From the NCBI GenBank assembly GCA_902615145.1, contig CACMNK010000001.1, positions 62,001 to 126,000 on the forward strand: 64,000 bases of DNA. The letters run 5' to 3'. The translations under genes were made by a program, and so were the position numbers. A model generated the notes under the pieces. The model saw only the letters and a program-made list of their open reading frames with translations, was not told the DNA's origin and searched no databases. The stretch comes from an uncultured Pelagibacteraceae bacterium (lineage in GTDB: Bacteria; Pseudomonadota; Alphaproteobacteria; Pelagibacterales; Pelagibacteraceae). How positions within the stretch are numbered: the first letter of the stretch is position 1; the number at the start of each line of letters is the position of its first letter. Positions 28,252 to 32,353 of the stretch are shown one piece after another.

Positions 28252-28827
28252 TTATTTTTTTTCTTGTAAGTTTTCAAGCTTTTTTTCTGTACTAGTTTCG
28301 GCCTTAGGGGCATCTTTTTTAACTTCATTTTTTGAAGTTTCGTCTATTTTTGGCTCAACCGCTGGCGCAGCCTCATTTTTAATTTCTGAAGTATTTTCTT
28401 TAGTGATTGGAGCTAAATTTTCCTCAGTTACTGTTTCTGGTTTAACATCAATATCGATACCAATTTTTTTTCTAATTTTTTCGGCAATCCTTGCTGACTT
28501 CCCAGTTCTATCTCTTAAATAGTAAAGTTTTGCTCTTCTTACTTTTCCAGATCGAATTACTTTAATTGAGTCAATCACAGTTCCAAACAATGGAAATGTT
28601 CTCTCAACTCCCTCACCAAATGATATTTTTCTGACAGTAAATGAGGAGTTTAAGTCTCTACTTTTTTTAGCAATACATACTCCTTCAAAATACTGAATTC
28701 TTTCTTTTTTACCTTCTGTAATTCTTACCCCAACCTTTACAACATCTCCTGGAAAAAATTCAGGTATCTTTTTTTCAGAGAGAATCTTTTTAACGTTGTT
28801 TTGGTTAATTTCTTCTATTGTTTTCAT
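28252..28827 (-). CDS. rplS: 50S ribosomal protein L19 with long acidic/Lys-Ala-Pro tail
   Basis: Protein of the large subunit near the 30S interface. The core (about residues 1-125) contains [34 protein letters not shown] and [18 protein letters not shown]. The ATG at 28827 (MKTIEEINQ) fits L19 starts; an in-frame TTG at 28842 is less likely. The 191-residue protein is much longer than the usual 115-130 residues: after about residue 135 it has a low-complexity tail rich in Glu, Lys, Thr and Pro. It follows trmD by 16 bases in the order rpsP-trmD-rplS, a familiar bacterial arrangement that here lacks rimM. Confidence 0.96.
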
Positions 28828-28843
28828 TTCAGTATTTATCAAT

Positions 28844-29530
28844 TTAATCTTTCTTATATTTTTGCCACAAATCTGGTCTTCGGTCGCGTGTTATAGCCTC
28901 AGATTGAGATAAACGCCAGTCTTTAATTTTACTGTGATCTCCAGATAATAACACTTCTGGCACTGCTTTTTCTTCCCATATTTGAGGTTTTGTGAACTGC
29001 GGATACTCTAAAAGGCCATTTTCAAAAGTTTCATCAGCCGAGGATTTATCATTTCCTAAAACTCCTGGTAAAAGTCTTAATACGCTATCTAGAATAACCA
29101 AAGCTGCCGTTTCTCCTCCAGACAATACATAATCTCCAATGCTCACCTCTTCAATATTTCTTGTACCCAAAACTCTTTCATCAACACCCTCAAACTGTCC
29201 GCAAATCAAAGAAAATGATTTTTCTTTAGATAAATCTTGTGCAAATTTTTGATCAAATCTTTTACCTTTTGGTGAAAGATAAAAAATTTTATCTCCCTTA
29301 TTAACATTTTGATCAATAGAATTCGCCAAGACATCTGGTTTAATTAACATACCTGTCCCACCGCCGTAAGGAGTATCATCAACTGTTTTATGTTTATCTT
29401 GAGCAGAGTCTCTAATATTAATTACTTTTAAGCTCCATAACTTTTTAACCATTGCTTTACTGTAAATACCTTTATTTAAAGGCCCAGGGAAAACTTCTGG
29501 ATAAAGTGTAAATACTTGAGCTTGCATCAT
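28844..29530 (-). CDS. trmD: tRNA (guanine-N1)-methyltransferase
   Basis: Methylates G37 of tRNAs, using S-adenosylmethionine bound in a knotted SPOUT fold. It has 228 residues. Diagnostic segments are [13 protein letters not shown] at the N terminus, [18 protein letters not shown], the knot region [12 protein letters not shown] with [11 protein letters not shown], and the catalytic-domain sequence near the C terminus. Two ATG codons stand in a row at the start. It lies 14 bases after rpsP. The rimM gene, often between rpsP and trmD, is missing at this site. Confidence 0.97.
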
Positions 29531-29544
29531 AAATAATCTTTGTA

Positions 29545-29994
29545 TTATTTCTTATCCTCTTTTTTAGCTTCTGCTTTTGGAGCTTCCTCTTTTTTAGCTT
29601 CTGCTTTTGGAGCTTCTGCTTTTGGAGCTTCCTCTTTTTTAGCTTCTGCTTTTGGAGCTTCTTCTTTTTTAGCTTCCTCACTGCCTTCTTTTTTTCGATC
29701 TTTTTTTGGAATAGCTTTCTGAGGATTATTTCCATTCGCCGGCATAGGCATTAATTCATTTTCACCTAAAATTCTTGCTACTCTAGTTGTTGGTTGTGCG
29801 CCTTGACCCAACCAATACTTTATTCGTTCTGCTTCTAATCCAATTCTTTCTTTTTTTTCCTTTGGTAATAGTGGATTAAAAAATCCCACTTTCTCTATAA
29901 ATCTACCATCTCTTGCAAAACGACTGTCTGCAACAACTACTTTATAAACGGGTCTTTTCTTAGTTCCGCCTCTTGATAATCTTAACTTTAACAT
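29545..29994 (-). CDS. rpsP: 30S ribosomal protein S16 with repetitive Lys-Glu-Ala-Pro tail
   Basis: Small-subunit assembly protein. The core begins MLKLRLSRGGTKKRPVYKVV and ADSRFARDGRFIEKVGFFNP, followed by WLGQGAQPTTRVARIL, all typical of S16. The protein has 149 residues compared with about 80-120 in most bacteria. From about residue 105 the tail repeats the unit KKEEAPKAEA, encoded by a near-perfect 30-base repeat. Alphaproteobacterial S16 often has a charged C-terminal extension; the tandem form here could vary in length between strains. It lies 14 bases after ffh. Confidence 0.96.
   Translation of the reverse strand: MLKLRLSRGGTKKRPVYKVVVADSRFARDGRFIEKVGFFNPLLPKEKKERIGLEAERIKYWLGQGAQPTTRVARILGENELMPMPANGNNPQKAIPKKDRKKEGSEEAKKEEAPKAEAKKEEAPKAEAPKAEAKKEEAPKAEAKKEDKK
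29560..29676 (-). repeat. 30-base tandem repeats inside the 3' end of rpsP
   Basis: Forward strand blocks starting at 29561 and 29591 are almost identical over 30 bases (tttttagcttctgcttttgg, then agcttcct or agcttctg). A 15-base half unit and a third copy follow to about 29676. Each full unit encodes ten residues of the S16 tail. Because the unit length is a multiple of three, gain or loss of copies would keep the frame. The repeat is seen directly; copy-number variation is inference. Confidence 0.85.
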
Positions 29995-30008: not shown

Positions 30009-31367
30009 TTACTTTAATTGATTAAATAATTCTGGAGGTATTCCTTTGTCAGTCATACCTTTCAGATTACCCTTTGACATCTTTTTCATCATTTCAGACA
30101 TCATTTTAAATTGTTTTAACAACTTATTGATAGTGGCTGGATCTGTGCCAGAACCATTAGCAATTCTTTTTTTTCTAGAACCATCAATTATCTTTGGATT
30201 CTCTCTCTCTTTTTTTGTCATAGACAATATTATAGCTTCATTCTTTGTAATAATACTCTCATCAATTCCAGCCGCATCCATTTGTGATTTAACTTTTGAA
30301 ACACCAGGCATAAAAGACATGATACCTTCTATTCCACCCATTTTTTTCATTTGTCTTAGTTGTGCTAAATAATCTTCCATAGAGAATTGTCCCTTTTTTA
30401 AATTCTCTTCTGCCTTTTTAATATTTTCTTCACCAAGATCTTGAGCCGCTTTCTCTACTAGAGAAACAATATCTCCCATCCCTAAAATTCTATTAGCAAT
30501 TCTATCTGGATGAAAAACCTCAAGATTATTAATTTTTTCGCCTATACCCAAAAATTTAATTGGTACTTGTGAGATAAATTTCATACTCACTGCGGCTCCA
30601 CCTCTTGCATCACCATCAGCTCTTGTTAAAATAATACCAGAGAGATTTACAGTATCTTTAAATTCTTTTGCTACGGATGCTGCTACTTGACCAGTCAAAG
30701 AGTCAGCAACTAAAAAGGTTTCAGCAGGTTTAATTATATTCTCGATTTGTTTTATTTCACTCATCATTTGCAAGTCTATTTGTGTTCTACCTGCTGTATC
30801 AAATAAAATGACATCAGCACCATTTAGATTTGCAGCACTAATTGCTCTTTGACAAATATCAGCTGGTTGTTGCCCTTCAATTATCGGCAAAGTTAAAATA
30901 TTATTTTGTTCACCTAAAGATTTTAATTGCTCTTGGGCTGCTGGCCTATAAATATCTAAACTCACCATCATAACTCTCTTTTTTTTGTTATTTTCCAAAT
31001 ATTTTGCAAGTTTAGCGGTAGTTGTAGTTTTACCAGAACCTTGTAGACCAACTAACATCATAGGCACTGGTGGTACGGCATTAAGATTTACATCATTATT
31101 TTTTTCACCTAATAAAGATACTAATTCATCGTAAACAATCTTAACAACCATATCGCCAGGAGATGTAGATCTGATGATTTCTTGTCCTAAAGCTTTAGGT
31201 TTAACTTTCTCAATAAACTCTTTTGCAACATCAAGTGATACGTCAGCTTCTAATAAAGCTTGCCTAATGGATCTCAGACCTTCATCAACTTGACGCTCAT
31301 CAAGCGAAGGTGCTTTTTTTAAAGAGGAAAAGACTTCCTCGAATTTATTTGTCAAATTTTCAAACAT
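30009..31367 (-). CDS. ffh: Signal recognition particle protein Ffh (SRP54)
   Basis: GTPase that binds signal sequences and 4.5S RNA and delivers ribosomes to FtsY. With the ATG at 31367 (MFENLTNKFEEVFSSL) it has 452 residues; an upstream in-frame start adds nine non-conserved residues that run into the folded leader. The N domain is followed by the G domain with GLQGSGKTTTTAKLAKYL, DIYRPAAQEQL, DTAGRTQ and TRADGDARGG. The Met-rich M domain near the C terminus contains the RNA-binding SGTDPATINKLLKQFKMM. It is divergent from dapF-ftsY, so both halves of the SRP targeting system flank a shared 160-base spacer, though ftsY comes second. Confidence 0.97.
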   Translation of the reverse strand: MFENLTNKFEEVFSSLKKAPSLDERQVDEGLRSIRQALLEADVSLDVAKEFIEKVKPKALGQEIIRSTSPGDMVVKIVYDELVSLLGEKNNDVNLNAVPPVPMMLVGLQGSGKTTTTAKLAKYLENNKKKRVMMVSLDIYRPAAQEQLKSLGEQNNILTLPIIEGQQPADICQRAISAANLNGADVILFDTAGRTQIDLQMMSEIKQIENIIKPAETFLVADSLTGQVAASVAKEFKDTVNLSGIILTRADGDARGGAAVSMKFISQVPIKFLGIGEKINNLEVFHPDRIANRILGMGDIVSLVEKAAQDLGEENIKKAEENLKKGQFSMEDYLAQLRQMKKMGGIEGIMSFMPGVSKVKSQMDAAGIDESIITKNEAIILSMTKKERENPKIIDGSRKKRIANGSGTDPATINKLLKQFKMMSEMMKKMSKGNLKGMTDKGIPPELFNQLK

Positions 31368-31381
31368 ATTTATTTTACACA

Positions 31382-31472
31382 GCAGTAACTGCACTAGTGG
31401 GCGAACCCTCGCTGACTAGTGTCGATCTCTTTGTTTCCAAAGACACCGCAAATTTAACGTTTTTGCGGAAAC
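31382..31472 (-). promoter_or_regulatory. Structured 5' leader of ffh mRNA (candidate cis-regulatory RNA)
   Basis: Two strong stem-loops lie just upstream of the ffh start. The proximal one pairs CACTAGT (31392-31398) with ACTAGTG (31415-31421) and encloses a nested GGG-CGAA-CCC hairpin (31399-31408). The distal one pairs CCGCAAA (31446-31452) with TTTGCGG (31462-31468) and can be extended by GTTT (31433-31436) with AAAC (31469-31472). A short GCAG-TAA-CTGC hairpin (31382-31392) is next to the start and shares one base with the proximal stem. These GC-containing stems stand out in such AT-rich DNA. The pairing is seen; function is inferred from position. Comparison with Rfam leader families would decide whether it is known. 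Confidence 0.6.
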
Positions 31473-31482
31473 TGCCACAAAC

Positions 31483-31488
31483 TATAAT
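31483..31488 (+). promoter_or_regulatory. -10 element of a promoter for dapF-ftsY
   Basis: A perfect TATAAT lies 41 bases upstream of the dapF ATG on the plus strand. A weak TTTTTG box lies 17 bases further upstream (31460-31465). The nearly palindromic CTATAATAG would also give a TATTAT-like -10 on the minus strand toward ffh, so this may be a compact divergent promoter. I could not find a well-spaced -35 for the ffh direction (the best, TTGACT, is only 11-14 bases away). Confidence 0.45.
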
Positions 31489-31528
31489 AGAGGTTCAAAA
31501 AGTCAATAAATAAGTTAAATAACTATAT

Positions 31529-32353
31529 ATGGAGATAAGAGCTTTTAAAATGGATGGATTAGGTAATGATTTTGTCATCATTGATAATAGACAAAAAATT
31601 ACCGATTTAACTAAAGATCAGATTATAAAGATTTGTGATAGAAATTTTATTGGTTGTGATCAATTAATATTTATTGAGACCAGCAAATCAAGTGATGCGA
31701 ATTTAAAATTTTTTAATTCTGATGGAGGGGAGTCTGGTGCATGTGGAAATGGCACTAGATGTGTTGCAAAATTAATCTCTGAGGAGACAAAAGCTGAAAA
31801 GATCATCTTATCTACTTTAAATGGAAACTTAGAGTCAAAAATTTTAGATAAAAATGTTGTTACAACTGAAATTGGTAAAGCTAAATTACAATGGAACGAA
31901 ATTCCCTTATCGGAAAAATTAGATACTAAAAATTTGAATATTGGGATCACTGATTTGAATAATAAAGAACATTTTGGTGGTACTGCTGTTAATGTTGGAA
32001 ATCCACATATTGTTTTTTTTGTAAACGAAATTGAAAATTTTAGTATTGAAAAAATCGGACCCAAAATCGAAAATCATAAAATTTTTCCAGAAAAATGTAA
32101 TGTTACAATTGCTAAAATAATTAATAAAAATTTGATTAAAGTGAAAGTATGGGAGAGAGGGGCTGGCCTAACCAAAGCATGTGGAACAGCTGCATGCGCA
32201 ACTGCATTTGCCGGTAAATTAAACAATCTTAATGAAAATAAAACAGACATAGAATTTCAAACAGGTAAGTTATCAATTCTTATAGATGATAGAAATTCAA
32301 TCCACATGAAAGGACCTGTTTCAAAAATAAAAGAAATTGAGATCAAACTATAA
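31529..32353 (+). CDS. dapF: Diaminopimelate epimerase
   Basis: Converts LL- to meso-diaminopimelate for lysine and peptidoglycan. It has 274 residues. The start MEIRAFKMDGLGNDFVIID is characteristic. The two catalytic cysteines lie in GESGACGNGTRCVAKL (near residue 75) and GLTKACGTAACATAFAG (near residue 215). It shares its final base with the ftsY start codon (TAATG), indicating coupled translation. Confidence 0.97.
   Translation: MEIRAFKMDGLGNDFVIIDNRQKITDLTKDQIIKICDRNFIGCDQLIFIETSKSSDANLKFFNSDGGESGACGNGTRCVAKLISEETKAEKIILSTLNGNLESKILDKNVVTTEIGKAKLQWNEIPLSEKLDTKNLNIGITDLNNKEHFGGTAVNVGNPHIVFFVNEIENFSIEKIGPKIENHKIFPEKCNVTIAKIINKNLIKVKVWERGAGLTKACGTAACATAFAGKLNNLNENKTDIEFQTGKLSILIDDRNSIHMKGPVSKIKEIEIKL

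Follow-up and report, generated by a model that had tools for sequence, protein, structure and literature searches.

The minus strand of the window (that is, the whole 64-kb stretch of DNA that was analysed) carries ffh, encoding Ffh (30009..31367; TIGR00959, 558 bits, cut-off 473), followed by rpsP, encoding S16 and here the proposed ligand gene (29545..29994; TIGR00002, 99.5 bits, cut-off 45), trmD (28844..29530; NF000648, 296 bits, cut-off 220) and rplS, encoding L19, an open reading frame with an uncertain start codon (28252..28842; TIGR01024, 141 bits, scanned as 28255-28830). No rimM lies between rpsP and trmD (29530-29545). The ffh start codon (ATG) occupies 31367-31365, and the overall gene order is ftsY beyond the divergent dapF, then an RNA motif, ffh, rpsP, trmD and rplS. 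At the gathering threshold, Rfam returned a sole match for the whole window, RF01793 ('ffh'), at 31436-31383 on the minus strand (53 bits, gathering 35), and a covariance scan of 31250-31620 with E up to 1 yielded only RF01793, with no likeness to the SRP RNA (RF00169). The folded stretch upstream of ffh is the published 'ffh motif', an element already known: it scores above the gathering threshold, has the same hairpin and precedes ffh in SAR11 as in other Alphaproteobacteria. A sequence-only reading of this DNA had suspected such a link to a reported pre-ffh motif and had proposed the Rfam search, and both suggestions were borne out. In the original description (Meyer et al. 2009, PMC2704228), the motif is one bulged hairpin before ffh with no ligand assigned, present in 'Cand. 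P. ubique', Rhodobacterales, Sphingomonadales and Rhizobiales.

Folding together with the covariance match (31383..31436) predicts an ffh leader running from about 31474 to 31368 on the minus strand, with three hairpins (P1, P2 and P3). None of 200 shuffles was as stable as the native sequence in any of three folds: the z score was -5.4 for 31370-31490 on the plus strand, -3.6 for 31366-31490 on the minus strand and -3.3 for the predicted leader itself (31474-31368), in agreement with the strong folding noted in the sequence-only reading. The leader RNA is assigned to the minus (ffh) strand because U.G replaces a pair at one P3 position in 19 of 89 distinct rows, a substitution that would be A.C if read on the opposite strand. 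The two 7-bp stems described earlier are present as given (CACTAGT 31392-31398 with ACTAGTG 31415-31421, and CCGCAAA 31446-31452 with TTTGCGG 31462-31468), and a third hairpin, P2, sits between them.

The core hairpin of RF01793, P3 (31392..31421, minus strand), consists of a 7-bp outer stem, a C.C mismatch (31414 x 31399), an adjoining A.C (31413 x 31400) and an inner stem GCGA/UCGC. It is this inner stem that is conserved, rather than the nested GGG-CGAA-CCC hairpin proposed from the sequence alone, in which the GGG is missing, for example, from all 34 leaders of the SAR11 family f2. Comparison drew on 166 leaders, from which 36 duplicates were dropped to leave 130 distinct ones; the P3 alignment comprised 90 rows, with SAR11 leaders thinned and seven divergent rows (L137, L158-L161, L163 and L168) excluded. 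Across these rows, 99.8% of cells were paired and nine of 11 pairs had changed on both sides, with a covariation score over the 13 pairs counted of 0.44, compared with 0.16 for shuffled and 0.04-0.08 for slid alignments; the compensatory change for which the sequence-only reading had proposed to look is therefore found in the core stem. The C.C mismatch, which lies inside the published 'bulge', occurs in 90/90 aligned rows (the divergent leader L163, outside that alignment, has T instead of the first conserved C), and the position adjoining it is more variable in form, with A.C in 54 of the 90 rows, A.A in 12, C-G in 10, G.U in seven and U-A in three. Such an invariant mismatch suggests a specific binding site and not a plain terminator.

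A -35-like box of the ffh promoter, TTGACT (31501..31506, minus strand), is followed after a 16-nt spacer by a putative -10 box, TAGTTT (31479..31484), picked out by eye from the alignments. TTGAC is found upstream in 130/130 distinct leaders. Its median distance from P3 in the separate groups is 78-87 nt, and in 121 of the 130 it falls 66-105 nt before P3, compared with a mean of four and a maximum of nine in 200 shuffles. Transcription is predicted to start at about 31472-31475, that is, at or just before P1, and all stems would therefore lie inside the RNA; a start downstream of the stems, which the sequence-only reading had named as counting against a leader, is at odds with a conserved promoter box that lies upstream of them. 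For the divergent dapF, a TATAAT at 31483-31488 and a -35-like TTTTTG at 31460-31465 can be recognized by eye, and these overlap the DNA of P1 as well as the -10 region of ffh.

The 5' hairpin P1 (31446..31468, minus strand; CCGCAAA/UUUGCGG) corresponds to the distal stem of the sequence-only reading, and a hairpin occupies this position in all 85 SAR11 leaders examined, with a sequence that varies between genera. P2 (about 31426..31445, minus strand), which appears in the folds as UCUUUG-GAAA-CAAAGA, is the weaker of the two additions: its family-mean stem score is 9.8, where 200 shuffles average 7.6 (sd 0.34) and peak at 8.5, yet it is significant alone in only nine of 37 families and its end position is blurred (neighbours score 9.4-9.5 against 9.8), so that we rejected it as a universal helix. 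In the SAR11 family f1, P2 reached p 0.01 (0.08 under a stricter null), and the ungapped-stem test used throughout overlooks bulged forms. The sequence-only reading had also envisioned a switch in which GTTTCC (31433-31438) pairs with GGAAAC (31467-31472); both hexamers lie at these positions, but all six pairs can form in only 25 of 51 f1 leaders and one-sided changes go uncompensated, and we discarded the switch. An outer GGU/AUC extension of P2 would compete with the 3' strand of P1, and inspection by eye shows competition for this shared GG(U) in SAR11 and in a number of further families; it was rejected as a general switch because P1 and P2, again judged by eye, do not overlap in the PS1 clade described below.

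RF01793 was found in 81 of 101 genomes among the relatives of the window's genome (its own included), among them 19 of the 22 that are at least 90% complete, and, class-wide, in 106 of 385 genomes, of which 81 score above the cut-off. Leaders were fetched from all 81 relatives and from 76 of the 106 class genomes, including the window's own, the 30 left out being weaker matches (E 6e-6 or worse); the first alignments held 51 f1 leaders, 34 f2 leaders and 55 from other Alphaproteobacteria, including three from PS1.

What lies downstream of the motif is highly constant. Outside PS1, ffh is the nearest of the searched genes in 152/152 judgeable entries (151 distinct loci; L157, whose sequence extends only 56 nt downstream, stands outside these judged entries). 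Of 34 loci outside SAR11 that were selected by the motif and extend for at least 3.9 kb downstream, 33 have rpsP after the motif in the same orientation, 31 have trmD and 27 have rplS, where a missing trmD or rplS may lie past the fetched stretch. The sole locus among the 34 without rpsP, L295, is a chimeric contig; as a case of ffh without rpsP, L137/L295 (G330:C222) was rejected, ffh breaking off inside an antisense recF-like stretch. Genes resembling dnaN and dnaA adjoin that stretch (all three were named by eye). Selection from the opposite end, by similarity to S16, gave 80 loci, of which 68 bear the motif (E up to 0.01): ffh follows within 400 nt in 62 and at 439 nt in one, and rpsP comes next in the other five. 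In 11 of the 12 S16-selected loci without the motif, ffh lies upstream of rpsP, and in two of the 12, L213 and L254, the contig stops short of the leader. As in the window, rimM was not detected between rpsP and trmD in the PS1 loci L185-L188 and L203; it is present there in most other loci with enough sequence.

The loci that depart from this arrangement belong largely to a marine clade that we putatively assign to PS1/OCS116 (family f51, the family of G149; loci L153-L156 and L185-L203; 18 genomes, six of them at least 90% complete). With TIGR00959, a model that FtsY also matches (about 195-210 bits), the 18 genomes gave one sub-cut-off match of 17.2 bits and no credible Ffh or FtsY, and with the SRP54 GTPase domain (PF00448) one sub-cut-off match of 20.5 bits in the same genome, while all 14 control genomes match both protein models. 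As a positive control, SecY was recovered from 14 of the 18 genomes and from all six with a completeness of at least 90%. The 4.5S RNA (RF00169) was found in none of the 18, which is weaker evidence because the model also misses control and relative genomes, matching 11 of the 14 controls and 49 of 61 genomes among the window's relatives. For the window's own genome, which is among the 12 of these 61 relatives without a 4.5S match and whose assembly is 73.6% complete, the missing match is probably a gap or a divergence. In PS1, these searches point to an apparent natural loss of the SRP (that is, Ffh, FtsY and 4.5S RNA). A 2021 paper describes the SRP as conserved in all living organisms and its loss as non-lethal in yeast or Streptococcus mutans (PMC7844537), and laboratory loss with suppressors is described for E. 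coli in two papers (PMC7844537, PMC8299109); a natural loss in a marine clade would surprise specialists.

The motif itself is retained in this clade, in 14 of the 18 genomes and in five of the six good ones. In 14/14 loci the distance from the motif to the downstream rpsP is 27-34 nt and no ffh intervenes, and in the 13 loci whose contig reaches so far the divergent dapF is found upstream. The order in L153 is dapF, motif, rpsP, rimM, trmD, rplS and leuC (the last named by eye); the window has the same order, except that ffh is inserted, rimM is lacking and ftsY follows dapF, whereas in L154 and L156 an mtaB-like gene and not ftsY comes after dapF. Both SRP genes are therefore missing beside the leader at the places where the window has them. 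The five S16-selected loci with rpsP next are labelled PS1 clade (three), OCS116 cluster (one) and Hyphomicrobiales AH-657-K06 (one), and at least two of them are genomes already among the 18. All 132 cells of P3 in PS1 are paired and two pairs have changed on both sides; the number of double-change cells (nine) and the covariation score were each reached by 0/500 shuffles, and the numbers of double-changed pairs and of pair types were not above those of shuffles (205 and 499 of 500). P2 varies in step as well when judged by eye (CGGUUC/GAAUCG, CAGUCC/GGAUUG and CAAUCC/GGAUUG). We read these patterns as selection on the leader RNA that went on after the SRP was lost.

With the motif widespread in Alphaproteobacteria and published in 2009 without a ligand, its retention before rpsP turns a vague question into one of whether S16 or Ffh binds it. 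One view is that Ffh or the SRP, bound to the leader, controls the gene of Ffh itself; Meyer et al. 2009 (PMC2704228) suggested regulation of ffh, and the sequence-only reading suggested autoregulation. This view draws on the proximity of ffh in all 152 judgeable entries outside PS1 and in 63 of the 68 S16-selected loci that have the motif. Autoregulation by Ffh cannot be the general function, however, because 14 of the 18 genomes of a clade with no credible Ffh or FtsY still carry the motif ahead of rpsP; of the earlier proposal, the leader RNA ahead of ffh stands and Ffh autoregulation as its general function does not. SRP RNA is the RNA that Ffh binds, and the leader lacks likeness to it even at E = 1; an SRP RNA mimic would moreover be expected only where Ffh exists, whereas the motif is kept in PS1. 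We regard an Ffh-binding leader as improbable. Equally little credit is due, in our judgement, to the view that the leader works in trans after release as a small RNA. Rfam types RF01793 as an sRNA, Meyer et al. 2009 (PMC2704228) report its transcript from small-RNA metatranscriptomes, the sRNAs listed for Bartonella include an 'ffH leader RNA' (PMC7717549) and RF01793 appears as an sRNA in a table for Mesorhizobium (PMC5596092), but attenuated or processed leaders likewise yield short RNAs, and the place of the element beside the operon start is kept in the judged loci even when the first gene changes.

More weight, though still well short of an even chance, goes to a leader that senses L19, TrmD or a non-protein signal, or that serves the operon as a constitutive attenuator or as an element of mRNA stability. 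The frequent company of trmD and rplS (31 and 27 of the 34 loci) would fit it, as would the U-rich window that comes after the GC-rich P3 in 43 of the 66 leaders that belong to neither SAR11 nor PS1; against it, rplS was not found in six loci and trmD in two where rpsP is present (although either may lie past the fetched stretch), and the C.C mismatch in 90/90 rows suggests a specific binding site in place of a plain terminator. Given the persistence of the motif without Ffh and the constant company of rpsP, we instead propose an S16-type leader. That the element is a ribosomal-protein leader of the ffh-rpsP-(rimM)-trmD-rplS operon, most likely sensing S16, is in our estimation about evenly balanced between true and false; the fuller claim, namely that the 'ffh motif' is misnamed and is an S16 autoregulatory leader in which the C.C-mismatched hairpin is the S16 site and which outlived the SRP in PS1, is put forward more tentatively, at slightly under an even chance. 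The case for S16 rests on one clade, as ffh is nearest in every judgeable entry outside PS1. A predicted S16 leader of Flavobacteria offers a parallel: its description (PMC7247131) places it directly before rpsP, usually with rimM, and predicts S16 binding; it belongs to another phylum, and we liken the two by position and predicted ligand with no claim of homology. The position before the ligand gene or operon that marks such leaders is found here (33 of 34 loci have rpsP after the motif in the same orientation, and it is the nearest gene in 14/14 PS1 loci). Of the features that characterize the ffh motif, the bulged covarying hairpin and the two conserved cytosines are present, and the position before ffh is kept in the window but not in PS1.

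As to ligand, binding site and regulatory outcome, we infer that an operon product, most likely S16, when in excess over 16S rRNA would bind P3 around the invariant C.C mismatch, and that the protein-bound P3 would shut the operon down, with ffh as a passenger. The interval from the 3' end of P3 to the start codon is 24 nt in the window, 21-29 nt in 50 of 51 f1 leaders (L074 was unmatched by the start-codon pattern used for P3 distances and U-rich tracts); in f2, with 34 leaders, it is 26-42 nt. Judged by the size of the ribosome footprint, P3 in f1 lies at the edge of the initiating ribosome's site, and a protein on it could hinder initiation; against such direct hindrance, P3 lies 221-439 nt upstream of ffh in some loci, which is too far. 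In many other Alphaproteobacteria, P3 and a U-rich tract could work as a transcription attenuator: a U-rich window follows P3 in 43/66 leaders outside SAR11 and PS1 (8/66 in a downstream control) and in 9/12 PS1 leaders (2/12 in the control). For SAR11, the lineage of the analysed DNA itself, attenuation lacks support: a U-rich window follows P3 in 6/34 f1 and 1/18 f2 leaders and the control is higher (30/34 and 11/18); attenuation by P3 may thus operate outside SAR11 only. Mimicry of an rRNA site holds for some, but not all, ribosomal-protein leaders; here, the best sense-strand match of model R1 in the E. coli 16S, the only 16S compared, scored 2.9 bits (E 1.5), and no excess complementarity to the E. 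coli 16S was seen across 44 leaders. If the proposal is true, the SRP protein would be co-regulated with ribosome supply.

The published ffh motif is a single bulged hairpin and a possible regulator of ffh; to this we add P1, the weaker P2, the conserved promoter box, the reading of the 'bulge' as a C.C mismatch and the retention before rpsP without detectable SRP, together with the proposed reassignment to S16. Among the matches listed in a literature search that lay mostly outside subscription journals, none linked the motif to S16 and none dealt with SRP loss in PS1. SAR11, PS1 and other leaders share a conserved tail after P3 (31391-31380 in the window), with U at +4 and, from about +9 to +13, a stretch resembling GYUG/GUUUGG; by eye this tail can pair with the CAGC/CAAC of P3 in SAR11 and PS1, and the pairing is inconsistent elsewhere. 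Six Paracoccus or Pseudorhodobacter plasmid replicons match RF01793, none of them with an annotated feature at the matching site, and a table in PMC5596092 lists a copy, IGR_Pb-19, on a Mesorhizobium huakuii plasmid.
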